Source of the DNA: Allacma fusca
Lineage: Eukaryota; Arthropoda; Collembola; Symphypleona; Sminthuridae
Reading direction: 5' to 3'
Assembly: GCA_947179485.1 (NCBI GenBank)
Contig: OX359248.1
Location: 50,106,386 to 50,170,385 of the forward strand
DNA: 64,000 nt
This document shows, one piece after another, positions 21,501-45,500 of this stretch. Below the pieces are notes generated by a model. It saw only the letters and a list, made by a program, of their open reading frames with translations. It did not search any database and had not been told where the DNA came from. Each line of letters starts with the position of its first letter. The first letter of the stretch is position 1. The position numbers were made by a program, and so were the translations under genes.

Positions 21501-24500
21501 CCTGTACTTGAACTGAACTTGACCTTAACTTGACCGGAAACAAAATCAGATTATACTTGACCTGGCATGACTTGGATTGGACTTGAGTTGAGCTTGAGCT
21601 CAACTTGTCTTGACCGATCTTCGACTAGACTGGAGTTTGACCTTAACTTGAGTTCACCGACCTTTGACAACACTTGACTGGAACTTTAAATTCAATTTAA
21701 GCTGAATGAATGGAAACATGACTTGAACTTTGTTTCAACTTGACTAGAATAAACGTCAATTTTGGTTTAGCTCGACTTGATCTGAAATAGCCTCACATTG
21801 AATTTATCTTGAATAACTCAACTTAGCCTGAATTATTCTATACTTGAGTTAAACTTAATATTTTCTAAAATAGATTACTGGACCTAAACTTGAATTCAAG
21901 ATTACTGGACCTAAGCTTGAATTGAAGATTACTGGATGTAAACTTGAGTTAAAGATTACTTGACCTAAACTTGAATTGAACTCCACTTGACCTAAACTTG
22001 AATTGAACTCCACTTGACCTAAACTTGAATTGAAATCCACTTGACCTAAACTTGAATTGAACTCCACTTGACCTAAACTTGAATTGAACTCCACTTGACC
22101 TAAACTTGAATTGAACTTCACTTGATCTAAACTTGAATTGAACTCTACTTGACCTAAACTTGAGTTGAAGATTACTTGACCTAAACGTGAGTTGAAGATT
22201 ACTTGACCTAAACGTGAGCTGAACTTCATTTGACCTAAAATGATCGAAAATTGGCCTGAACTTAAATACAACATCACCTAAATGTATTACCAACTCACAA
22301 TATAAATATGGATATATATACTTCATCTAAACCAAGCATGATATTCAATTGCAAAAAATGCCTTCAAATTGACCAAAATTTGATGGAAAAATCGCCCCCA
22401 ATAATAGAAACTGACCTGTACTTGACCTTAATTGACCTCACTTAGAATTAAACTCAAATTCACCTTCACTTGCTTCATGTGAATAACAAATTGACTTGAA
22501 CATAAACCAACATGACATATACCTAATTCACACACAATTTGACCTCCGGTCTTCATAAACTTGACCCAGACTGGCGTTAACTAGGACTTTACTCAGTTTC
22601 CTACTCGACTTGAACTTAATCTAAGAAATATGATGTCATTTTCTTTGGGCTATAAGTTTAGCTAAGATAAAAGGCCAAGTGGAACACAAGAATCACCCTA
22701 ACCTCCTTCTATTACCTTCAATCCTCATTCGAACTATACCCTACCTCTGTATGACCTGCAGCAGTCCATGCTCAAAGGGAACTCTGGTATGGAGAATCAA
22801 TGTGTCAATACTGTTTATGGGAGAGGAAAACTTTGCCCTTTTACATTGACAAAACATCGCCGTCGAGTGAAGCATCATACATTCTCGAGCCTCCTATAAC
22901 TCACCATACACGTACATATAACTGCACTACACCAATACTGTATTTGCTCCAACTATAAGCAGGGATACCGGAAATATTTACCAACCTCCCTAGCCCCCAC
23001 AAAATGTACAGTGACCACGAAACAGCCAATCACCAAGTGTGCACTATCATCCAGATTTTCTTACATTTGTTTCTTTGACCCAAAAACATTTTTGGGTCAC
23101 AAACCTTAAGAAAAGTAAAATGTGTGACCCTCAAAATCCAGAAACGTTAGTAATATTAACTTCAACGATTACATTAAAAAATCTCAATTTTTATACCCCT
23201 GTGACCGGAAATTTTGACCTAGACCAATTAAACAAAAATAACAAAATCAGGCTGGAAAGTTTCCTCAGGGAAACTTACCACGCATATTTCACAATTATTT
23301 CCAACTTGGGCTACAATATAGTTAATTTTAAATTTCGTTAAATTCCTAGATTTTCATCCCATGTTTGACCCTTTTGACCCCGCAAATACTGACCTAGGTC
23401 AATAAAAATATTTCTCCAAAATTTGCGGATTTCAAAGCAATGCTAGTAATCATTATTACAATAATATTTCGTTTCCTCAATACATTTTCCACGTTATTTC
23501 CTGTTTTTGACCCCTCTGACCCGAAATCGTGACCTAGGTCACTGACAAATTACCTAGAATTTCTGAATGGAGCGTTACAACCGGAATGTTTGGAAATGTT
23601 TTGCAATTAGGTCATTCATAGCGACTTTGTTTAATATATTTACTATTTGAAATCCCTTGACCAGGTAGCGCCAGGAAACATTGACCCCTGTGACCGAAAA
23701 TCCTGACCAATGAAAATATTTTCATAAAATTTTGAAGTTTGCACAAAATAAAATATATATTGGTATTATTTTGGAGGAACACAACTATTTTATAAAGCTA
23801 ATAAGGGCTAGAGAAAAAGGTGTAAATATCTCAGCCATCCTTGTTCACGCAGATAAAATATATGAATTAGGTTTACAAGCACGTTCAATATGACGTGCAA
23901 AACTGGGGAAAACAATTTCTACCATAAGATCTGGGATTGGAGATTTTTCTCAGAAGTTTTGGGTGTCGCATATGAAGTAAATATAGAAATGATGGATTCA
24001 TACCTTTGACCTTGAGGGTGTAAGTTACCATGCCATTGACAAGTGCTTGTGTGGCAGGGTCTGGTTGACATGTGTAGTTCCCAGCGTCGGATTTCCTCAC
24101 TGAGACAAATATCAACTCGTTCTGGCCAGGCTTGATGAAGGCATTCCCAGACATTGGCACGGGCTTCCCCCCATTGGTGGTCCATCGAACCATAGGCATG
24201 AACACGGACGAGCTGGCTGGGAGCCCAATCACACCACAATGCAGACTTAGGGCTTGACCTCCGTAGACCTCTATCACTCGAGACTGTCCAACTACTCGTC
24301 CTTCCACTACAACAAAGAATCAAATTCAGGAATAATTATTTGCAAAAAATAAACTACTAAAAATATTCCTACAAGCCTGCTGAGTCTTAAATGCGGAATT
24401 GCCCTTGTCAGAAGAAAAATAATTATTTCAGAAGAGGAATGTTCCAAAATAATTTTTTCCCTAAAGAGTCGGTACTAACGCAAGGGGCTCTCTAATTGGA

Positions 24501-27500: not shown

Positions 27501-30500
27501 AATGTTTTTCAACTTTGTGGGCAAGATTTTGCGGTTAAATTGTTTATTTCGTAAAAAATGTGGGAAAAGGAATGAAATTCAAAAATGGTAGTGAAATTTG
27601 AGATAAATTATGCAACTAAGCATGATAAATGTATTTATACTTGCAGGATCTGTATTGGGTGAGTGAGTAAGGGACGCTGTATTCAATCATTCCCTACAAT
27701 GAATCAGGAGATGAGAAAACCCCTCAGAGTGAAATACAATGGTTGGGTAGAATTTCAATGTCGGATTTGACGAATAGAGGGAAGAAAAAATCGATTATGA
27801 TGAACTTGAGTGTGACAAATTTTGTGTGTAGGTAATACCGGAAATAGATTGACATTTCCTTTCTTTGGATTCCCCCCATTTCAAATGCTTGTCATAGCAT
27901 CCAGTGAGCGGGAAATATTTGTGAATGTGAATGAGTGATGTTGATAGAATTTTCGGGAATGAGAGAAACTCACTGAAACTGGAAGGAGTGATGGGGTAGT
28001 AGACAACTTTGTAGGAATTCACTATTCCATTGGGTAGAGTTGGCGGCTGCCAACTCAGCTGAAGACTTTGGTATGACAAACGGACACAACTTGGCACTCG
28101 AACGGGGCTCCCTGGAACTGTACAAATGAACATTGTCAACATTCCTTATACACTCACTACTACTCAGATGTCGGTACGATACAAAGAATAATTATGACCA
28201 TTTTTTTTCCATGCAACAAAACCTCCTAGAGTTGTGTCACGTGGTATATTAATCAATAAGTCCAAGCTCGTAGAACAGCGTAGAAAATTAGTAACATACA
28301 ACCCATGGTCTGGTTTTGGCAAAGTTAGGTCAAAAAAGGGTCAAGAGCTGAAAAAGTGTAGTCACGTTTTAGTCATGTATTTGCAAAGTTAGGTCAAAAA
28401 CGGGCCAAGAGCTGAAAAAGTGCAGTCACGTTTTAGTCATGTATTTGCAAAGTTAGGTCAAAAACGGGTCAAGAGCTGAAAAAGTGTAGTCACGTTTTAG
28501 TCATGTATTTGCAAAGTTAGGTCAAAAACGGGTCAAGAGCTGAAAAAGTGTAGTCACGTTTTAGTCATGTATTTGCAAAGTTAGGTCAAAAAATGGTCAA
28601 GAGCTGAAAAAGTGTAGTCACGTTTTAGTCATGTATTTGCAAAGTTAGGTCAAAAAAGGGTCAAGAGCTGAAAAAGTGTAGTCACGTTTTAGTCATGTAT
28701 TTTTGCAAAGTTAGGTCAAAAATGGGTCAAGATGTCAAAAAGTGTGGTCACGTATTGGTCCTGTGTTAGCAAAGTTAGGTCAAAAATGGGTCAAGATGTC
28801 AAAAAGTGGGGTCACGTATTGGTCCTGTGTTAGCAAAGTTAGGTCAAAAATGGGTCAAGATGTCGAAAAGTGGGGTCACGTATTGGTCCTGTGTTAGCAA
28901 AGTTTGGTCTAAAGTGGGTCAAGAGCTGAAAAAGTGTAGTCACGTTTAGTCATGTATTGCCAAAGTTAGGTCAAAAATGGGTCATGAGTTGGAAACGTGC
29001 TGTAACATATCCGACAGGTGTTTGCAAATTTAGGTAAAATATGGGTCAAGAGTTTGCAATGTTAGGTCAAGAGTGTGTAAAGTTTAATATATGGGTCACG
29101 AGTTGGCAACGTTGCATCATGTTTGACCCCAACTATGGATTAAGAGTTGGCAAAGTTTGGACAATAATGGGTCAACATAAGATTAAACAAATTCTGGGAC
29201 AAGGCAAGTTTAGTTCAGTTCAAAAATAAGGGTCAAATATGGATGAAGCCATAAGTTTAGTTACTACAAGAAAACAGCAGTCAAAATTTTGAAAACAAGT
29301 ATACTTCGAACGTGAAATTGCTAGTTTCAAAATTCTTGAAACATCCAACAGTAAATCAGTTCAGGTCCCTGCTTTAAATCTGAGATTTATGGAAAACCAA
29401 AAAATCCTCATTCCAACATGTTCTGCTTAATCCTTATGCAAATTTCACCCATGGTTCAAATCTTATCCCATGCAATTAAACTACCATTACAAGAAAACGA
29501 ATGCTCACCATCCTCTAATGTCCTTATAAGTACAGGCTGTGACTTCGGGCCCTCTCCGGCATTGTTCAGGGCCGAGATGTGAATTTCGTACTGAGTGAAG
29601 GGCGCCAGGGCCAGGACTTGGAATTGACAACAGGCGGAAGCCTCACCCTTCATCTCATTTTTCTTGCTCGTACTAATCTGACTACTGATTAAGCTCTCAT
29701 TGAGAGCATAGGAAGAGGCGAAGGAGGCTCCTTCCACAGGCACAATTAAATCTCGCGGCTCCTCATTGGACCTAATCCAAAATTTATTACATCTTAAAAA
29801 TATTTTCTACACTCCCACAAGCCAAAATATACAGAACCCAATTTCCAGCATTCATTTATTCACAGATTAATATTTGTACAATTTATTGAAATAATTTACT
29901 GCTTCCTTACAAATGACTCAGAATGAGAACCCTGTATCCCAATATCACACCATGCATCATTTCCCCAACGACTCCGCTCCAGGAAATTAAGATCCCCTGA
30001 TTTGCCGTTGCACGACCTCGAACCTGTGATAAAAAAATATATTTTTGATATTGCCTCTTATAACCAAAGTGTAAAGCATAGGCTCTCGTCCAGACAAAAA
30101 AGCGATTTCAGAAGAGGAATGTTCCAAAGCCTTTTCTTCACTATTAGGGAAATGCACTTTCATACGCATTTGTTATAGCAAGTTTAAAAAACGTAAGTTT
30201 TTCAAATACAAAAATTTTTCAAAAAAAAAAAAAAAAAAAGTTGTAAAGGTAAACTAACATTGGACGGCGGGGCTGACGGAGGAGAACTGAGGGTCCTCGC
30301 AACAATCTCAGCCGGCGGGCCGTTTCCCGCCGAATTCACTCCCGACACGCGGAAAATATATGTGGAGGACGGGAAGAGATTCTCGATTTTGACTTGAGTC
30401 CGTTCCCCCAAAATGTCCAGGCGCTGGATTGGAAATCCACTTTTGTCGCCTGCTATCGAGTACTCCACGAGGTACGTAATCACTTGGGTTGGAGGGAATG

Positions 30501-33500
30501 CTTCTGGGCTGCCTGTAGATGGCGTTGCGTGTGGCGGGAGCCACACTAGAACCAACTCTCGGGAAGTAATCTCCGATGCACGGAGATCCTCAGGTCGACC
30601 CGGTTTCTCTGCAATTATTTTTAGGAAGTCAGAAATTTCTTTAAAATATACGGAAGTATCTGATTTGAAAATTTGAAATTATAAAGGGTTTATAAAAGCA
30701 CTCTCTTGAGACAATTTGGTTATGACGGTTATTTTAGAAACATTTATGTACATAGCTCATGTTCATGTGGATGGTAGGGGGTGTGGAGGTGCCGTTATAA
30801 CAAGAAAGAGGATATGAGGGTTCTGTTATAAAAAGGTGTGACCTGTAAATATGTAAAAAAAAAAAAAAAAAAAAAATGGAGGTCCTATATGAAGAGGAGG
30901 GACTTTTAGAGAGGGCTGTTATAAAAAGTTTCGACTGTGTATCCAGAAGCAATATGATTAAAATATGTTGGGAAGGATAGGAAAAAGGGATAAAATATAC
31001 CTTCGACCCAGAGCTCGAAAGACTGTGAGACTTTGCCGAGGGAATTATTAGCTGTACATTGATAAATGCCTTTATCCAAGGCTGGGTCCAAATTCTTCAT
31101 CACAAGCGTCACTCTTGATTTCTTTCCCTCGCGGTGCACTAAACTGTAAATTCTGTGAGGGAAAAGTCATTGAATTTTCATGTTACGGTGGATAGTACCT
31201 CTGAGAGGGAGCAATGCATTATAGGGAGGGAGACAAATGTAAATATATACAATGGGACTGTATAGGGAGGAATGGGAGGTTGAGGAGAAATGAAAGGAGT
31301 GGAAAAAGCAATCAGCCTGTGCAATCACAATTCCATCATATGTGTTCCTTCGCATCATCAACACAGATGACTTTGTGGGGAAAAACTCAAGGAAAATATT
31401 GGCAGGAAATATTAAGTGAACACTATTACTTCTATCACTCTTCTGGGACAGTGCTCTGCAAGGAATTCCAATTAGATATTTCCGATCTTGGATCAACACA
31501 TTCGACGGTTGATCGTCCGTTCGAGTGAGCTTTCAGTTTTAAGGGCTGAGTGGGGATCTCAGATTCTAGTTCGAGTGAGGAATGAGGGTGGAGTTGAAGA
31601 GCGGATTTGAATTTGGAGTTTGAGTTTAAAATTGAATTTGGAGTTTGAGTGTAACTTTGAGTTGGGAGTTTGAGTGTAAATTTGAGTTTGAGTGTAAACT
31701 TCAATTTTAAGGTAATTTTAAAGTTAGTGTATGGATTTAAAGCTTGAGTTTCAAGTTTCGTTGCAACGTTAACGTGAGTGTTTGATTTTAAAATTCCATT
31801 GTGATTTTCGAGTGAATGTTTGAGTTTCAAGTTTCATTGCGAAGTTCGAGTGAATGTTTGAGTTTCAAGTTTCATTGCGAAGTTCGAGTGAATGTTTGAG
31901 TTTCAAGTTTCATTGTGAAGTTCGAGTGAATGTTTGAGTTTCAAGTTTCATTGTGAAGTTCGAGTGAATGTTTGAGTTTCAAGTTTCATTGTGAAGTTCG
32001 AGTGAATGTTTGAGTTTCAAGTTTCATTGTGAAGTTCGAGTGAATGTTTGAGTTTCAAGTTTCATTGTGAAGTTCGAGTGAATGTTTGAGTTTCAAGTTT
32101 AAGTAATGTTGAGTTTCAAGTTTAAGTAATGTTGAGTTTCAAGTTTGAGCAAGTGCTTGAGTTTCAAGTTTGAGTTGGTGTTTGAGTTGGTGTTTGAGTT
32201 GGTGTTTGAGTTGGTGTTTGAGTTTCAAGTTTGAGTTGGTGTTTGAGTTTCAAGTTTGAGTTGGTGTTTGAGTTTCAAGTTTGAGTTGGTGTTTGAGTTT
32301 CAAGTTTGAGTTAGTGTGTGAGTTTCAGGTTTGATTTAATGTTTCAAAGTAAACTTCAGTTTTGAGCGTGAGTGTGAACTTGAGTGTGACTTTCGTGTAA
32401 GCATTTAAACTCTAAATTGTACTAGAAATTTGAAGTTCAAATGAAACTTTGACACTCAAAGAGTTTGTATTTGAAATGTAATTTCAGGCTTCAGTTTAAA
32501 GCTCAAGTGAGACTTTGAACTTTAATTTCAAGGAAAAATTTGGAGATGAATTTGGAGGGAGTCTGATGTTTGAGTGAGGGAGCGAGTATTTACGGATACG
32601 ATTACCAAAAAATTTTCACTTGAAGTTTGAGTGTAATCAAGTACTACTGTATCTGCTTAACGAAAACTTGACTTTTGGGTTCTAGTTCCGGTCGAAATTT
32701 TACTTAAAAACTCGTAACTGAGTTTTTCAAACTCGAACAAGAGTTTAGACTCAAACTTTGATCTGCACTTCAAATATTTCAAGCTCAAGTTGTAATTTAC
32801 ACAAAAAGTTCCAGATTCAAGTTCAAGTGTGAGACTGAAAACTGTGAGTTGGTTAGGAGCTGTAGAAAAGAAAGTAGGGATCTTGTGCGGAAGGAGATTT
32901 AGAAAAAGAGAAGAAAAAACCAGAGGATGATTTCCACAATCATTTCCTTTTCCCCTGCCCCAATGTTTTTTTATACATTAGGATTATAGCCAATAAACTG
33001 ACCACACTATATAGTCTTAGCTTCCAATACAACGTAGAGACCAAGTTACCCATGCATGTATATACATACACACACACAAAGGCTCACGGAAGAGCAGACA
33101 ATATTGTCTTAGCGTTTGCTGCATGAGTAATCATTACTTTTCCCTACCTGTTGGCTGGTGAGCTGTCAAAGACATTCGAATCCTTCATCCAAGCCACAGA
33201 CATCGGAGAGTCACCGTGAACTTCACAAGTGACCTCATGTGACTTCCCCTGGCTCACAGACTGTCTCTCCAATGTTTTCGTAAAATACGGCGGCACTATT
33301 TACACAAAGAAACAAAAACTGAAACTTCTCCTTGTAAATCAAATGGAAACATCACGAGTCATTGAATCTCGCTTCGAAAGGCTAATTTAAAGGCTAATGT
33401 ATAGGGTGACCGATATTTGTCTTCCCTAACTCAAAATGAGCTTTGAATGACTTGTATTATTTGACCTCTCTGACCTAGGTCAAGTTCACAATCGGTGGAT

Positions 33501-36500
33501 AACCCAAGGAATTAATATTTTCTTATACTAATTTACAACACAGGATTTTGCCAAAAAATTCTAAAAAAAGAACAGCTTAAAGTTTTGACCAAACCACTGC
33601 TCCAGGTCAAAGGTCAAGTTAAAATAACTTCCTTCTATCAAAACGAAGAATAAACTTTCATACTTTGTGCAAATCTTTACAAAAATTTAAAGCAGGAGTT
33701 GTGAAAACAGAACAACTTAAATGTTTAAGGGTCAAAGTTGAAGGTCATATAATGACCTGACTCAGGGTAATTGCCATAAGCTTCTGAGGCAAATATTTCC
33801 AAGTGCGAGAATCATAATAAGGGTAGTTAAAGTTTACTTTGGCAAAAGGATTTTGTAGGGAGCTGGGTCAAAGTTCAAGGTCAAACGGGTTGAAACAAAA
33901 TGATTTAAGGTCACGCAGCTGAGTTATAAATCCGATCAGTTACACTTTCTAAAATATTTGTCAGGGTCAGGACGAACCTGAAAATAATTAGAGCTCAGCT
34001 ACGCATCCTTAAATTCCAATGCTCTAAAACCAGGTCAAGATTTAAATGTTTGTCAAGGTCAAAGGTCAAAATCATCCGGTCAGAGCGCCAACCGGGCTCG
34101 AAAATAAAAATGTTCCAGTGTAAATTTAAACTATCCAATACTTTTAATCTCAAGGATTTAAACTCTAATTTGTTTCACGAGACTTGACATTGACCTTTGA
34201 CCTATAGGTTATTTACGGTCAAAGTTTTTCGACCCCATAATACCACAAGCAACACATTTCTATTATAATTTGTTTTTCTGCAAGACAGCTAGGTAGGCAA
34301 TTCTTATAAAGGGGCAGCGAGGGAAATTACCTTTGTTTTTAACCCCACGACCTGAAATATTGTCCGAAAATATTGACCCAGATCATTCAAATTTTTTTTT
34401 TAATTTGTTAGACAATTTTTTAAAATTGGGGGGAATTGATTTTGTTTTACTACTGTTTTTCGTTTGGGCTATTTGTGTGAAAAGGTTTTGTGGCATCATG
34501 TACATATGTATGTACATTTACTTTTATTTATATGAAAGATTGAACCTGAAAATACAGGGTTGCAGAAATGTGTGCTGTATTTAAGAGTTGATTTATTTTT
34601 TACCGTTGACATCCAACTGAACAATTTTGGATTCTCCAGGTCCGATGCCATTTTCGATTTTACACATGTACTGGCCTCCGTGATGTTCCTCAGCCTCGAG
34701 AAATATTAGTGAGCCATTGTGGAAAGTTTGGACATTTCCTGAAGGCCAAAGGGTCTCCACAGGACGCCATTTCAATTCCAAGCCATCGCCTGGAAACCAT
34801 TCCAGAGCCAAGACTTAGAACAAGTGAAAAAGTTAACTTTTATTTTGTCCTCCAGTACTATATTAATAGAATTTGGAGGGAATTTATGGAGCTGTATTAT
34901 ATACCTGTGGACTTGAACCAGGAGATGACCGGAGGAGGAACTCCAGAACCAGAACAATGCATTTCCACCTCCTCTCCTCTCGAAACATTCGCATCCAACG
35001 GCTCCCGACTCCATTTCGGACCAACTGCACAAATTTCACCAATTCAAATTTCCAACTCAAACCCATTCTTCCATTATTCATTTCCCTTCACAAATTCTTT
35101 CATATTCAACCCTCTCATAAGACTCACTCAGACAGAGCTGCGATCGAGTAGGGGTATTGCCTCACATTACTATTTACTCCATTCGTACTTGAACTTGACC
35201 ACACTTGAATTTCATTACTCAAGTTAAACTGGTTTAATTTATAATTACTACACTTCACCTGAAATTAATTACAGCTATCTGAATTGAAGCACTAGTTCTG
35301 ACATGTATTTGTGGCCAAACTTCAATTTTACACTTGAAATTTAACTTGACTCAGACTTGAACTTAACCTTAACTCAAAATTCAACTCGATCTGAGATTCA
35401 ACTTGACTTAAAGCTCATCATGACCTGAACTTAACCTAATCTTAAATTTGAGCTTGATCTGAACTTGACCTTGGAAATAACTCAAAATTTGACTTGACCT
35501 GAACTTGACCTTGATTATAATTCCAAATTAATCCTGAATTTAAACAATTCAACGAAAGCTTAACTCAACCCTGGTCAAAAATTCAACTTGATTTAAACTC
35601 AACCTTGTTTCAAACTTAAACTTCACTTGCACTTTAACTTGACCTGAGTCGGACCTTGTCTTAAACTTGAGTTTTTCCATAACTCAAACTTACAAGCGAC
35701 CTGAACACAGCAATGAAATTATATATGCCACTTGACCTAAGCTTAATCCTGACTTATGCTTAACCTTGACATGACCTTAATCTTGACACAAGCTTATACT
35801 TGACATGACCTTAATCCTGACTCAAGGTTAAGCTTGATATAACCTTAATCCTGACTCAAGCTTATACTTGACGTGACCTTAATCCTGACTCAAGCTTTAA
35901 CTTGGCATGACCTTAATCCTGACTCAAGTTTAAACTTGACATGACCTTAATCCTGACTCAAGCTTAAACTTGGCATGACCTTAATCCTGACCTCACTTAG
36001 ACTTGGCACGACCTTAATCCTGACCCCACTTAAACTCAACCTGAACTTAACCTCGACTCAAAATTGAAATAAAAATCCCTTACATTCCAAACCCTGACTT
36101 GACCTATCCTACTCAAACTTGACCCTAATTTGACCCCGCCATAACCTTTTCCCTACCTGCTCACAGCTCTGCCTCATGAAGTCAAATTCAGTCAGAAAAG
36201 ACGCCTGTAACCGCTAAGTCATTACAGAGCGAAATAAGGTTACCACAAGAACCCCTCTGTACACATAACGATAAATAACTAAAAGAGGAAAGAAACCAAG
36301 ATCTCTACCACTAAGAATAATGACTCAATGGAACTGAAAGAAGGAAAATAAGGAGGAACTGAATCTACAGAAACTCAAAAGGCACTTATACAAATCCAGT
36401 AGGGGATTACTCCATTTCAAATTTCAAAGGAGGAAGCTAAAAAAACTACAGAAATAGTGTGTGAGCATGAAACATGTGGAAAATAGTCACAACTTTTTCA

Positions 36501-39500
36501 TTTCCACAGCTCTCTCATTGACAGTTTTCTTCAATAACATTCCCAATTTACATTTAATCAAAGCAATCTCATCAGTCAAAAAAATCTCGGAAAAATTTGA
36601 GCCCCATAAAAAAATCCACTGCCAAAAATTTCTCTCAATCTCAAACAACAAAATTCACCAAAACTTACTCCCATCGATTCTGTGCAAAAAAATCCCATTT
36701 AGTGTATATATACCACTTTTTACAATTATATACGAATGGAGCTACACTACCAAAAATCATCTGCACGAATCTAACGTAGGAAAAGTGAGCATACGAATTT
36801 GGAGTAGACTCTCGTTGTAGCGGCCTCCTTCAAAGCAAAATTCGCTTTGAAAATTTCTTTTGAGGTCAAAATCTTTTGACAACTGCAAACGTCTTGGAAA
36901 ATTATTGTTCCATATGAAGACAAAACCAGATTATAACAAGGGCGTCCGGTATAACGAGAGTATTTTGTGCGCATATATTAATACAGCATTAAATTTAGGT
37001 ATAGGTTTGGCAACAGCAGCAGCAGATACAGCATTGGAAAAATATGTCACCAATGTACAACTCATATGGATGAATAATCAAAAAAACTTTTATTTACAGT
37101 GCAATCTCGCTATATGGGCAAACCATTTAAAATAGGGAAAACACATTTAAAATTTATACACACAATTTTGGAAGACCAATTATTATGTTGCAAATTTTTT
37201 TTGAAAATTTTAGAGATGCTTTCAAAAGGGTCTCCGATTAAAACCATCCTCATGAGGTTTTGATTTTATAGCGAGAGTGGACTGCATCTATAGAAATGCG
37301 GGTACAGGCAGAAAAGGCCATGGCTGGAGACGACGTTCCAATAAAAAGTGTTCCTGAGTGAGAACAACTGTCAGTCAAATTTTACACTAAGAAGAGCGTC
37401 AGCCGGTGAAAAATGAGAAAGCGAAGGGGAAAAATTACTTCAAAAAATACACACATGGTCGAGTAAGGAGCAAAATTTACAGCAAGTTTTCTTTACTTTT
37501 AGGGAACTTGAACGCATGAAAATGTTTTAAGAAGAATACATTTTGAACGCCTTTACAATTAACAAATATTTTTGTAAAAAGTGTTTTCAACTCCCAAATT
37601 TGAAAGACTCCTTTACACACAAAACATTTGTCATTAAACAAAATTTACCACCCTCAAAATTGGGAGACGAAATTTCCAAGAAAATTTGCCACCCCACAAA
37701 ATTTAAACAAATGTGTCCTTTTAAAAATTCCTAGAAAATTTTACCCTCCTAGTATGACCAAGAAAGTTTTGCGCCCCTAAAGTTTTGAAGAAAAATTTAC
37801 GCCCCTACAGTTTCCAAGAAAAATTCGTCCTCCCACAAAATTTCCAAGAAAAATTCGTCCTCCCACAAAATGCCCAAGAAAAATTCGTCTTCTCACAAAA
37901 TATCCAAGAAAAATTGTCCTGTCCTAAAATTTCAAAGAAACCTTTGACCACCCCTAAATTTTTCAAGAAAAATTTTCAAACTCAAAATTTTTAAGGCACG
38001 AAATCTACCGCCCGTAATTTTTGCACTACAATTTACCACCCTAGATAATTTAGAAAACACTTTTATTTTGAAGGAAAAATCTACAAAAGCCCTAGAAATT
38101 TTGAAGAAGCTCACAATGCGCTCTCTAAAATCCTACCCCCAAATTTATCACTATAAAATTGTGGAATACAGAATGTTACAACCAAAATCATCTATTTGCA
38201 GCTTACTAGATCATGTGTGCGTGATTACACACAAATGATTTACAAGAAAGGGATGTACACTGCGCAGAATAAAAAATTCCTTAAATATCTTATTAAAAAT
38301 ATGGGCTCTTATAAAAGCAACTCTGCTCTGGAAATTCATACATATTAGAAATAGGGGGGGGGGTACCATGCGGAAAAAACGGGGATATATTTGAAGTACG
38401 GGGAAATACTGATGCTGAAGTTCTGAGGTGAGCGAGACTCCATGGGCTGTGGAGTTTGAGGAGATGTTTTCAAGTCCCGTATCGATGGTCACAGTATATG
38501 TACATACTTGCTTCGTACAAAAATCTATTTTTTATTTTAGGCATCAAAAAACCAGCAAAATACAAAAAAATCAAAAAATAACGATGCCTCAAAAAACAGT
38601 ATATCAATTAATATGAGAGTATTGACAATTTAAGGGTATTTTATTTCAAAGTGAAAATATAAAATAGTGCTTGAAACTTAAAAACCAAAAATTTTCGAAA
38701 GTAGCTACAAACTAAAAATTATCGAAATTCTAAGACATTTACTTGAAATTATACCAAAAAAATTAACTAGGTTAAATTTTTATCCAGAAATCTCTACTGG
38801 GAAAATTTTTCTTTCAAGAACAGATAGGATATGGGAAAATTCACAAGGTTTGGAAAATGTTCGAAATTTTAAATTTTATGGGTAAAAAAATTTGAGGGCA
38901 GAAAAAAAAATTAATGTAAATTTTAGAACTACTTATGAGAAAGCATTTTTTGACGGAGCCTCTTGTAATTCTTACCTTGGACGAGAAGCTTAGAGGTATA
39001 GGAAACTTGGGATGCGGGATTAGAAGCGAGACATGAGTACTCTCCCGTGTGATCGGAAGTGAGAAAAGAGAATTGAAGGACTCGGGACCAAGGGTCCAGG
39101 GAAGTGATGGAGATGTTCGGGATGTTAAATCCCACTTTGTCATGCTCCAACTCCAGGGGACTGTGGTCTTTGAAAAAGGAAAAGGAAATGGGCAAGTCTC
39201 CTTGGGACACCCCACAAACCAGTCTGGACCGAGCCCCTTCTTTTAGACCTTCTTGAAATGCGAAAGGCTCTATTTTTACGGGAACTATAAGAGAAACAGA
39301 GAAATAGACAAAACTCAAGAAAAGCCAAAACTTACACCAATCTTAGAGTTGAGTGACAGAATCGCCAGTCGAGAGGGAGGGACAGAGAGAGAGAGAGAGA
39401 CAGGGAAGATAAATTATTGCAACAACGAAGTCAAATGACCAGAGGGAAAAAAATCCCATTGAAAATAAGTCATTAATCAAATCTCACAAATTATTATTTT

Positions 39501-42500
39501 GCGGGGGACAAAACACTGGAAATTATATAAAGGGAACAAATTATCACAGCGGAGTAAGAAAACGGTTCGAAGGTTAGTAATGCATTTTGAATGCTGCTGT
39601 ACGCACGCTATATAGTCATAACACAAATATTAATATTACACAAACCATTTTACCATCACAAGACATTCATGGACATACAAATATACGTCCGGACACAATG
39701 CTAGGATTACTCAATTATTTTTGTATCCAAAAAATACAGGCCTCATATGCACATTGACATTTGCTCGGAGCATTGGGGAACGTCCATAAATAATTTTTGG
39801 GGCAAAAGGATATTTGAAATTGGAGCCATTTTTTTATACGCATGGAGGCAGAAGAGGGTATTTAAAAACAAAGGCGGCCTCAATGGTTTTTCATATTTTC
39901 AGGCATGAATGTTTTTGAAACAATATTCTAGACCTAAAATTTTTTTTGTATTTCCATGCCTCAATTGCAATCAAATATTCCCGCTTCAACTGATTTTCCA
40001 AATTTGCACGCCTAAATGGTTTTTTAAAATTTGAAGTAATTACTCGATGGTTGTTCCGAATTTGCACGCCTCATTAATTATTTCTCATATTTCTACGCTT
40101 AATTGTTTTTTAAACAATTGTAGGCCTCAAATATTTTTTCAGATTTCCATGCCTCAATTACAATTCTGAACTTTTACGCCTCAAGTGTTTTTCCAAATTT
40201 GCAAGTCTAAATGTTTTTTTTAAATTTGGAAGCCTAAATGGTTTTTTCAAAATTTGCAAGACTAAATGGTTTTTTCCAAATTTGCAAGCCTAGATGGTTT
40301 TTTCCAAATTTTCAAGCCTAGTTGGTTTTTCCAAATTTGCAAGCCTAAATGGTTTTTTCCAAATTTGCAAGCCTAAATGGGTTTTTCCAAATTTGCAAGC
40401 CTAGATGGTTTTTTCTAAATTTGCAAGCCTAGTTGGTTTTTTCCAAATTTGCAAGCCTAAATGGTTTTTTCCAAATTTGCAAGCCTAAATGGTGTTTTCC
40501 AAATTTGCAGGACGCAAAGGTTATTCAAAATTTGCACGCCTCAATAACTATTTTCATATTTCATGGCCTCAATGGTTTTTTCCAAATTTGATCTCAAATG
40601 GGTTTTTTAATTTGCCTCAATTATTATTTGTACACGCTCCCACCTTTACTCATCTAAATCTAATTTGGAACACACCCATTCAGAAAAACAAGATGATTAT
40701 TCTCCTCACTCACCCCCAATCAGTCACACTGGCAAATAAATACATTCAAAATGTAATCCTCTAATCTAGAGCATGTAAACTTATAAAAAAACTAGCAAAT
40801 ATAATTTAGTTACATTGACATTAGTATTAGAAGGGTGCGTCAAATTTTTATGAGTGATAGCCCCGTCCATTAATCATTGAGTAGAGAGTTTTCGGAAGAA
40901 TTAACCTACATTGAAAATGGACATTTCCACATGGTTCATCTCAAACAAGGGGGTGTTTACAGTTTGAGGTTAGGATAGGTCCCTATTTTTTCACACAATT
41001 TTATTTTAATACCGAGAACAGTAAGCTCATGGGAGCGGGCGACTGTGGAAATAGCATCCGAGGCGGTGCATGTGTACACTCCGGCATGGGACGGTTTTAC
41101 GGAAGCTATGCTCAGCAGGCTGGTGAATCCATCCGTGTCCAGAACATTGAAAGGGGCCGCGGACTCAGTTGCCTTTTTTTCCTCCGGTGAATTTTTTTCA
41201 TGAGTAAAATGTTTTCCTGCGGGTCCTTTGGACCATTTGAGGGTCCCCAGACCGGAGCTGAGGGAGCAGACGAGGGTGACCCGCTCCTCTTCCACCACCC
41301 GACCTTTCTCTGGGAACGGGGCTATGCGCAGGGGCGCTGTGAATGGGTTTGCAATTTCCTTATCATTTTTTACGTACTCTTCTTTTTCTATTAAGGTGGG
41401 GGGGGGTGGACAAATTCCTGGGTATGTGTTTAAACTTTGAAAATAATTCCCAAACTTTTTTTAGAATTCCAATTCCGGGAAAACAGCCTGTTTTAGAAAA
41501 TTTGCCAAAATCTAGAAATTTTCCTATTTCAGGAAATTTCCTATAATCTAGAAGTTTTCCTAATTCAGGAATTTTTCCAGAACCTAGAAATTTTCCATAT
41601 TTAGAAAATTTCCAAAATCTAGACATTTTTCAAATTCAGGAAATTGGTCAAAATCTATAAATTTTCCAAATTCAGGAAATTTCTCAGAATCTAGACATTT
41701 TTCAATTTCAGGAAGTTTTCCGAATTCAAGAAATTTTCCAAATTTAAGAACTGTTAATTTTCCAAATTCAGGAAAATTCCCAAATTTAAGAAATGTTAAT
41801 TTTCCAAATTCAGGAAAATTCCCAAATTTAAGAAATGTAAATTTTCCGAATTCAGGAAGTTTTCCAATTTTAAGGAATCTCAACTTTCAGAATTCAGGAA
41901 ATATTCCAATTTCAAGAAATATCTCATAAAACTCACGAAATCTGAGGAAATTCGCAAGTTTTGAGTATTTTGCGCAGTAATGAAAAATATACACCATTTA
42001 AAATTTTTATAATTGTCAAAAATTTTCCTTTTGACCAAATTTTCTATTCAAAAAGTGACAACTTTTTCTGAAATGACTCCTTATATTGTTACCCATTTTC
42101 GGAATTTCGGAGGCCGAGAATTTGGAATTTTTTCCACCCCCGAACCATTGAACTAAATTGTCCCTCATAAAAATGACTGGAATTTATTCTTAGACACCCA
42201 ACGGTCATTTACGAGCTGGTACAGTCTCTATACACATGGCTTTATACGGAGCTACAGACACGGGGAACCTTTATATATAGATAAAAATAAAATGTTATTT
42301 TCTTTTACTCTCATGTACTCCGGCCTCAATCTTACCCACAACATTAACTTGAATCTCCCGACGTGCTATCCGGCCCTGGGAGTCCCATGCGGAGCAAATG
42401 TAAGAACCACCATCCGAGCTCCGCTCCACTGAAGTAATGGTCAGCGTTCCATTTGATCCCACGCGTTGCCGTTGATTCAGAGGAAGCTTCAAACCATCTG

Positions 42501-45500
42501 CAGACGCAACAAAAAGACCCAAATGAAATCCAATGGCATGTACTATTTTCACCGTCCACATTTTCCCCCTCACAAACGATAACACCACTAAATGCTAAAT
42601 ACGTACATGCCCGCTCCCCACCCCCTTTATAACGGCCCCCCCCCCAAAATATCCAAATGTTAATGACTTATATGATCGCAGACTGATGCAAACAGCATGA
42701 ATAGCGAGGGGCTAAATCATGAGACGTGTAAAAAAGCTGACAATAAATATCTTCAGTTTTCTTAGGAGGTCCATTATACGAATAGTCTACTGTACTTGTA
42801 TGTACATGCATAGATATGTATAGGGACAGAGTGGGTGTATAAGTGAGTGAGCGGTCGTAAAAATTGCTTTATACTTGCATTTTTCAGGAATGCATAATGC
42901 ATATGAGCTAAGGCATATTAGACTCATATGGCTTAGCCCATGTTACAGGATAGCTTACAAATATCCCTCAAAATATTTTATTGGTAACGCAAATTTTGAC
43001 CCAGGTCAGGTGACACATGTCAAAGGTCATGGTTAATAAGAATAAATGAAGAGCCTGAAGAATCTTTTGGAAAGCAAACTATTTATGGGAATTGAGAATG
43101 AAGGTTGACTGGTGAGTTTGATTTGACCTCAGGTCAAAGGTCAAGGTCATTGGAGAGAATGAAAGACAAGTATTAATTTTTCGCTTATTTGAAACTAGTC
43201 GTAAAAACTAGAGAATATTTTAGGAATCTTGCTTCCAATTTTGGCCTCACAATAAAAATCATTGGGTCAAAGGTCAGGGGTCAAGAATGAAAGGCACTTT
43301 CAGATGCAAAATTAAAGCTAATTTTCAATCTGCTGTGTAAAAATCCGGGTGATTCAATTGGACGGACAAGGGACAAATAGGTGAATTATTTATAGTTTTG
43401 AAATTTTAGGAAAATGACCTGGGTCAAAGGTCAAATATTGGAAAGTATGTACAATTACCCACTTTGAAATATAATTTTGTGCACCATCAACCTGGAATTA
43501 AAAACAAGTTGGAATAATTGACCTGGTGACCTTGAAATTTGACCTGGGTCATTCGTAAAATAAATGTTAGGATTGTCTAACGCCATATTAGTGTGGCTTT
43601 GGATGGCTGGTAAATGGGCTGAAAATGCGTGGTCACCGTGTGGCTTGGCGGAGAAAATTGAAAAAAAGAAGGAACTCTATTTAAGGGGGAATTTATTCCC
43701 GGTGTATTTTTTCTTGGTGCTTAATATTTGATGTAGTTGGCTGACCATTGGGTTTATACTGTGGGAGTGCGGAGAATCCATAAAACGCTTGCTTGGCTCG
43801 CTCCGAGAGATATCCACAATAACAGTAGTTAATGGTCAACTAAGCCGAAATGAGCGTCATAAAACTACGCGTGTGGGTAATCCAATGTGCACACTCGAGA
43901 TGGACGTACCTTTTTCCCAGGAAATTCCAGCAATGGGGTAGCCCGAGACGGGACATTGGATCTCCAGGAATTCTCCTCCGATAGCAACCACAGGTGGAAC
44001 AACTCGGACCCACGGAGCCCCTATTATTAACACAGTCCCACAATCCCTTCAACTTCCCCCATAAATCCACCACCAACTTTCCACACATCAGATTATCTCC
44101 AGACCTTCCCTTTATGTACCTCAACTCAAGGCCAAACTTTTAGAGGAAAACTCCAGAGAAATTATTATTTCAAAAGACCACATTCAATTTTTAAACTACA
44201 CCCATATTTTCTCATGTTGCAAATGCATGTAATGTAAATTGTACTTGCACAATTGTTTATGCGGCGTATCGACCGTTAGGAATCCAAACGGAACATGTGC
44301 AAAATGTGGCAATAACTCTTGTCAAAACCTGAATCGAAACTTCAATTTAAACCTCCGTCAAAGCATAAATCGAAACTTCAATTTAAATGTGAATAGAAAA
44401 TCTAAACTTGAAATTAGTCTTGAATCGAAACTTAAGATTACTCTGGAATCGAAAACTTGAACTCGAACTCAGACTTGAATCAAAACTTTAACTTTAGCAT
44501 AAAATAGAATTGAAAACTTAAACTTGGAATAAGACTTGAATCGAAACCTGAACTTAAACTTGAAATAAGACTTGAATAGAAACCTGAACTTAAACTTGGA
44601 ATAATACTTGAATAGAAACCTGAGCTTAAACTTGGAATAAGACTTGAATAGAAACCTGAGCTTAAACTTGGAATAAGACTTGAATCGAAACCTGAGCTTA
44701 AACTTGGAATAAGACTTGAATCGAAACCTGAGCTTAAACTTGGAATAAGACTTGAATCGAAACCTGAGCTTAAACTTGGAATAAGACTTGAATCGAAACC
44801 TGAGCTTAAACTTGGAATAAGACTTGAATCGAAACCTGAGCTTAAACTTGAATCGAAAACTTGAATCGAAACCTGAGCTTAAACTTGAATCGAAAACTTG
44901 AATCGAAACCTGAGCTTAAACTTGAATCGAAAACTTGAATCGAAACCTGAGCTTAAACTTGAATCGAAAACTTGAATCGAAACCTGAGCTTAAACTTGAA
45001 TCGAAAACTTGAATCGAAACCTGAGCTTAAACTTTAATCGAAAACTTGAACTTAAACTCAGGCTTGAATCAAAAACTTGAACTTGGACCCAGACTTGAAT
45101 CGAAAACTTGAAGTGAACCTTGAATGGAAAACTTGAACTTGGACCCAGACTTGAATCGAAAACTTGAAGTGAACCTTGAATGGAAAACTTGAACTTGAAC
45201 TCAGACTTGAATCGAAACTCGAATCAAAATTAAAACTCAACCTTAAACTTGAAACTGAACCCTTACCATGCAGATTTTAAGTTAACACTTCCTCCTTCCC
45301 TTTATTTTGCTACACATCCCCTTAAAGACTAAAAACAATTGAACAAGTACTAAAAGGAAAGGAGTCTGGAAATAATCTGAAAGTTCCGGATGGTTCACTG
45401 GAATTCAATAATAATTATTCTAGAAAACAGCCAACCACAAAGCTTCCCAAGTTTCTCACCGTAAATGTTGAGCCTGGAAAGAAAATATAAAATTTTTATT

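Follow-up and report, generated by a model that had tools for sequence, protein, structure and literature searches.

Two Ig7-type exons, probably used alternatively, in a Dscam gene of Allacma fusca, a springtail

Introduction

When a Dscam gene, whose product serves nerve-cell recognition, carries two exons for the same immunoglobulin (Ig) domain, does a transcript take one of them or both? The question is raised by a gene on the minus strand of a 64,000-nucleotide stretch of the Allacma fusca genome (GenBank assembly GCA_947179485.1, contig OX359248.1, positions 50,106,386 to 50,170,385). This stretch is referred to below as the window, and its contig as C12; positions without a contig name are those of the window. 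Between Ig6 and Ig8, the gene contains two exons, 7A and 7B, each of which encodes an Ig7-type domain. By analogy with other arthropod Dscams, we favour the view that they are alternative exons, with 7A or 7B in each transcript and two isoforms as the outcome, and give this reading a probability of about 0.6. The genome searched comprised 392.7 Mb in 91 contigs.

Two exons between the same neighbours

The region runs, in the direction of the gene, through the following features.

43860..44048, minus strand: open frame with the first Ig6 exon, typed as Ig6 by a self-excluded model (see below)
42336..42497, minus strand: second Ig6 exon, the 5' neighbour of 7A, ending in phase 1 and likewise typed as Ig6
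41336-41013, minus strand: exon 7A, Ig7-type (RIAPF), 324 bp, phase 1-1
39284-38976, minus strand: exon 7B, Ig7-type (KIEPF), 309 bp, phase 1-1, with the core tryptophan replaced by phenylalanine
34900..35043, minus strand: open frame with the first Ig8 exon, the 3' neighbour of 7B; the exon itself begins at 35024 and continues phase 1
34596..34814, minus strand: open frame with the second Ig8 exon

The Ig6 exon leaves one codon base at 42336 and Ig8 begins with two at 35024, so that both 7A and 7B are phase 1-1. With the exon border marked by a slash, the flanks of 7A are TCACAG/CG (acceptor) and CTCG/GTATTA (donor), and those of 7B are TTATAG/TT and CAAG/GTAAGA. A sequence-only reading of this DNA had described two tandem phase 1-1 exons of 324 and 309 bp between the same neighbours. 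The borders and phases are as it gave them, and the two-exon observation is confirmed as real, rightly described, and of a known kind. The place between Ig6 and Ig8 is the canonical position of Ig7 in Dscam. The gene has two Ig7 exons and not a large Ig7 array as in Dscam1 / Dscam-hv; such an array sits at C10:5.4 Mb in this genome.

Are both exons of the Ig7 type?

The genome's own Dscam loci supplied the models for Ig4, Ig5, Ig6, Ig7, Ig8, and Ig9, and each domain was excluded from its own model. The correct type was returned for all 33 Ig4-Ig9 domains, 7A and 7B included. 7A scored 43.2 bits as Ig7, against no more than 17.8 bits as Ig4, Ig5, Ig6, Ig8, or Ig9, which rules out that it is an Ig6, an Ig8, or a generic Ig domain; 7B reached 78.5 bits for Ig7. 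The earlier claim that both exons encode an Ig7-type domain is borne out by these scores. When the open reading frames of the window (six frames, at least 18 amino acids) were scanned with an Ig7 model that contained both copies, these two exons came out on top (100.8 and 72.9 bits), and the other frames listed had at most 26 bits. Could 7A be a chance open frame? This is ruled out by its Ig7 typing together with the probability that 107 codons stay free of stops, which is 0.022 on the base make-up of 7A itself and 9e-5 on that of the flanking intron.

Comparison with solved structures in the PDB points the same way for 7B, which has a sequence match to Dscam Ig7-type domains; two higher rows are multi-Ig chains without a single passing stretch. 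For 7A, phmmer returned seven chains, six of them non-Dscam and one a Dscam (E 4.5e-4), with no stretch passing alone. 7B is 40% identical to one Ig7 exon of the Dscam1-type array of this genome. 7A retains both cysteines and the core tryptophan, the residue that is exchanged in 7B. Neither exon had a match in NCBIfam. AlphaFold models of the two domains, built from alignments of two rows, have low confidence (mean pLDDT 60.3 and 66.6) and were used for Foldseek ranking only. In that ranking against the PDB, the best four rows for the predicted fold of 7A were three sDscam entries (Ig1) and human DSCAM Ig7-Ig9, and rows 1-10 for that of 7B were all Dscam or sDscam.

Other Dscam loci of the genome

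Is a doubled Ig7 peculiar to this gene? The genome was surveyed with six protein queries and one Ig family, and then in the stretches around the matches, a procedure by which more diverged loci could be missed. Seven loci have Ig6, Ig7, and Ig8 in order, the window included. Ig7 is doubled at three of the six that are not hypervariable, namely the window and one locus each on C5 and C8.

C5:36582424-36584640, minus strand: locus at C5:36.6 Mb with two Ig7 domains, the first in one 297-bp exon, the second in exons of 59 + 247 bp
C8:38935819-38936313 and C8:38937621-38938025, plus strand: locus at C8:38.9 Mb with two Ig7 exons of 495 and 405 bp
C10:5418677-5431943, plus strand: Dscam1-type gene with 21 intact Ig7 exons and one partial

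A single Ig7 is present at C12:3.1 Mb, C10:45.2 Mb, and C12:32.25 Mb, and is split by an intron at the last two. Both C8 exons have a long low-complexity insert within the Ig fold.

Have the two copies at each doubled locus arisen from one another? In an Ig7 tree of 22 rows, the copies pair up at none of the three loci. The end branch of 7A is the longest of all, at 4.2 where the median is 0.42, and no place can be assigned to this exon. 7B goes weakly with the copies at C12:3.1 and C12:32.25 Mb (83/87), and the first C8 copy joins the second C5 copy (93/89), in opposite order. A sister relation of the copies within a locus is not rejected by approximately unbiased (AU) tests (p 0.086, 0.11, and 0.31). 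Three doubled loci in one genome allow one to ask whether there was a single ancestral doubling or a repeated origin, and whether a two-exon switch requires RNA pairing.

The sequence-only reading had also called the gene Dscam2-type. Two other loci here have two Ig7 as well, so that the presence of two Ig7 does not discriminate Dscam2, and a tree of the seven Dscam loci of this genome is without any supported branch. In this comparison, made within the one genome, the label found no support, and filing the window gene as Dscam2 is not warranted. Two Ig7 exons alone are no ground for naming a gene Dscam2.

One exon or both?

The parallel with exon 9 of Dscam1, fly Dscam2, and the Dscams of centipedes makes mutually exclusive use the likeliest reading. 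It is favoured because both exons are of the Ig7 type, agree in phase at either end, and share Ig6 and Ig8 as neighbours; because 7A is intact, with an open frame, both cysteines, the core tryptophan, and exon-like GC; because arthropod Dscams diversify Ig7 through mutually exclusive exons; and because the same genome has a 21-exon Ig7 array and two more doubled loci. A transcript would take 7A or 7B, which would give two surface isoforms differing in one Ig domain, and their homophilic binding might differ as well. If the exons are used singly, the gene would be a two-state Dscam switch in a springtail, alongside a Dscam1-type array.

Could both exons be included instead? Two Ig7-type domains would then follow each other in the protein, whose Ig domains would number eleven in all and ten N-terminal to the FN3 block. 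Every join among Ig6, 7A, 7B, and Ig8 keeps the reading frame; thus, the forms with 7A alone, with 7B alone, with both, and with neither are all readable, and the frame cannot tell which of them is made. The intron between 7A and 7B is 1728 nt long, which is enough for ordinary splicing and rules out exclusion through a too-short intron. Double inclusion is also favoured by the great difference between the two sequences, which are 26% identical (E 0.15 and 0.39 for the pair in the genome searches), and by the second Ig7 at C5, whose two exons are not explained by an exchange of single exons. Against it, the four Dscam-type genes here besides the doubled ones have one Ig7 per transcript, judging by their layout or, for the Dscam1-type array, by analogy with insects. 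To our knowledge, there is no Dscam with eleven Ig domains, which also counts against double inclusion. We regard the inclusion of both exons as unlikely.

Some of these results weigh against the alternative use of 7A and 7B: the frame does not forbid double inclusion, the two exons are so far apart in sequence, they do not pair up in the Ig7 tree, and a second Ig7 spread over two exons, as at C5, is unexpected for a simple one-exon switch. The remaining points of this kind concern the RNA pairing and are given with it below.

Splice-site strength and the state of 7A

A splice-site model was made from the Dscam exons of this genome, each left out in turn, after sites without AG or GT as expected had been dropped. 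7B ranks 4th of 37 acceptors and 21st of 45 donors. The acceptor of 7A ranks 35th of 37 and its donor 43rd of 45, and the two donors ranked under it may be misframed. The stronger sites of 7B and the weak sites of 7A suggest that 7B may be the default exon and that 7A would need help to be used. In a generic splice-site matrix, neither 7A site was listed, and likewise none was for other exons of the gene, such as Ig8a. A U12-type donor for 7A was ruled out by eye.

Is 7A, then, decaying or rarely used, with 7B as a constitutive exon? Its weak sites would fit this, as would its end branch, the longest in the Ig7 tree. What speaks against decay is the exon itself: its frame is open across 167 codons, both cysteines, the core tryptophan, and the Ig7 signature are intact, and its GC of 0.56, high at each of the three codon positions, exceeds that of the introns (0.31 to 0.34). 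Acceptors that score even below that of 7A occur at the lone Ig7 of C12:3.1 Mb and at one Ig7 variant of the Dscam1-type gene. From its open frame and exon-like GC, 7A does not look dead, and we hold a decaying or rarely used 7A to be quite unlikely.

A candidate RNA helix

If 7A and 7B are alternative exons, how might the weaker one be chosen? A candidate for the help that 7A would need is a 19-bp helix that joins the intron after 7A to the intron before Ig8.

40961..40981, minus strand: candidate selector arm, 31 nt past the 7A donor, pairing with 36101-36119 (11+8 bp, 2-nt bulge)
36101..36119, minus strand: candidate docking arm in the 7B-Ig8 intron, 1078 nt before Ig8

Such a helix would place 7A close to Ig8 with 7B looped out, and it is because of this geometry that a rescue of 7A is proposed. 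By length, the helix is equalled at one of 400 random positions of the same geometry; in a second control, three of 1500 positions were as good, two of them being the same helix. The pattern GTTTGAG-(0-3 nt)-TAGGATAGG occurs genome-wide only at these two arms, with no third match. The reversed pattern is also found twice, so such a low count is expected by chance; what stands out is that the two sites face each other within 5 kb. The docking 40-mer in addition forms a longer, interrupted duplex with sequence that follows 7B; of the two pairing energies, the weaker one was not equalled in any of 40 shuffles. As the real introns are rich in minisatellites, the shuffle controls are lenient and the random-position controls fairer. 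The latter conflict with each other according to the measure used, helix length or duplex energy.

It is by duplex energy that the pairing after 7A is not rare, as 13 of 150 random positions in the window were as good. The helix statistic, moreover, was picked when the pair was already known, and the docking arm is 40 nt past a minisatellite. After 7B there is no strong helix, the best being equalled at 113 to 133 of 400 positions. On two selectors competing for one docking site, the measures point different ways: the 19-bp arm after 7A is rare by length and the best helix after 7B is ordinary, yet the joint energy beat all 40 shuffles. No comparable helix was found at C5 or C8, where the best after the first Ig7 was equalled by 39 to 114 of 400. 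The Dscam1-type array served as a positive control for the same pairing idea and was negative, with 9 of 20 shuffles doing equally well. The pair of arms was absent from the output of a BLAST scan for inverted repeats, and hence has no score there. We give the candidate helix no more than one chance in five of being functional. Improbable, too, is the wider picture in which the window, C5, and C8 are parallel two-state switches next to the 21-exon array, with the choice in the window made by a single RNA bridge that rescues 7A.

A docking site upstream, in the Ig6-7A intron, was also considered. Its pairing beat 60 of 60 shuffles, yet leans on poly-C and A/T-rich stretches, and it was set aside.

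The introns around the Ig7 exons are full of minisatellites with a period of 28 to 72 bp, which in the window lie at 35730-36061, 40188-40590, and 41487-41920.

Comparison with known systems

Which of the known Dscam systems does the gene resemble? Drosophila Dscam2 is described as having two alternative Ig7 exons (PMC3364881), and the homophilic binding of its isoforms A and B as isoform-specific (PMC11292952). The gene studied here likewise has one pair of Ig7 exons in a Dscam-like gene, and by analogy a two-isoform switch is a likely outcome. It differs in that 7A and 7B are so little alike and in that two further loci of the same genome are doubled.

The centipede Strigamia maritima is reported to have 40 Dscam genes with 2-5 Ig7 exons, many of them apparently used one at a time (PMC4244043). 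In both animals Ig7 appears to be multiplied at several Dscam-like loci and Ig2 and Ig3 not, the latter having been checked in the springtail at some loci. The centipede is credited with 60-80 canonical paralogues in the same source, compared with six non-hypervariable loci here, three of them doubled.

With the exon 9 cluster of insect Dscam1 / Dscam-hv, the gene shares a whole Ig7 domain in one phase 1-1 exon. Outside the exon 6 cluster, the docking sites of Dscam are described as lying in the downstream intron (PMC6071210), which is also where the candidate docking arm is placed. The insect clusters have dozens of variants and the gene in the window has two, with one selector that can be named with any confidence; moreover, this genome has its Dscam1-type gene elsewhere, at a locus of its own on C10.

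The chelicerate sDscams have a variable Ig1 that is given as the counterpart of Ig7 (PMC4835542). The likeness lies in a variable Ig7-type domain, and entries of this group are the best structural match of the predicted 7A fold (PDB 7y4x and 7y54). In contrast to the shortened sDscams, for which alternative promoters and cassettes are described (PMC4835542), the window gene appears to have the long layout.

Within springtails, a palindrome with two times eight genes called Dscam2 is reported from Folsomia candida (PMC5490193). A search at title level for literature on Dscam in springtails or Collembola found no title on springtail Ig7 exons among those listed, which does not disprove that such work exists. 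What is new here is that one springtail genome has a doubled Ig7 at three loci, that 7A and 7B are so divergent and unequal, and that a testable, if doubtful, RNA bridge can be proposed.

The rest of the gene

Beyond Ig6 to Ig8, parts of the gene were recognised with domain models, and others by eye.

30909..31166, minus strand: open frame with the second part of Ig9, found with a domain model
30205..30678, minus strand: open frame with an FN3 domain, FN3-1 by position (PF00041, 44.2 bits, cut-off 25)
23888..24319, minus strand: open frame with an Ig domain, Ig10 by position (PF13927, 32.6 bits, cut-off 30)

Pieces of Ig4, Ig5, Ig8, and Ig9 were found with the models among the matches listed, and Ig6 was typed as well. 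The pieces of Ig2 and Ig3 were recognised by eye only, as were Ig1-3 as a whole, the transmembrane segment, and the cytoplasmic tail. When six FN3-candidate frames were compared with Pfam, one was above the FN3 cut-off, three were below it, and two had no match. Rfam returned nothing in the window at gathering scores.

Outside the window, more Ig-domain exons lie about 260 kb off, at C12:50428281-50431343 on the plus strand; they are unmatched by the Ig7 queries. About 1.1 kb past the window end, at C12:50171498-50171689 on the minus strand, there is a frame that by eye looks like the Ig1 exon of this gene.

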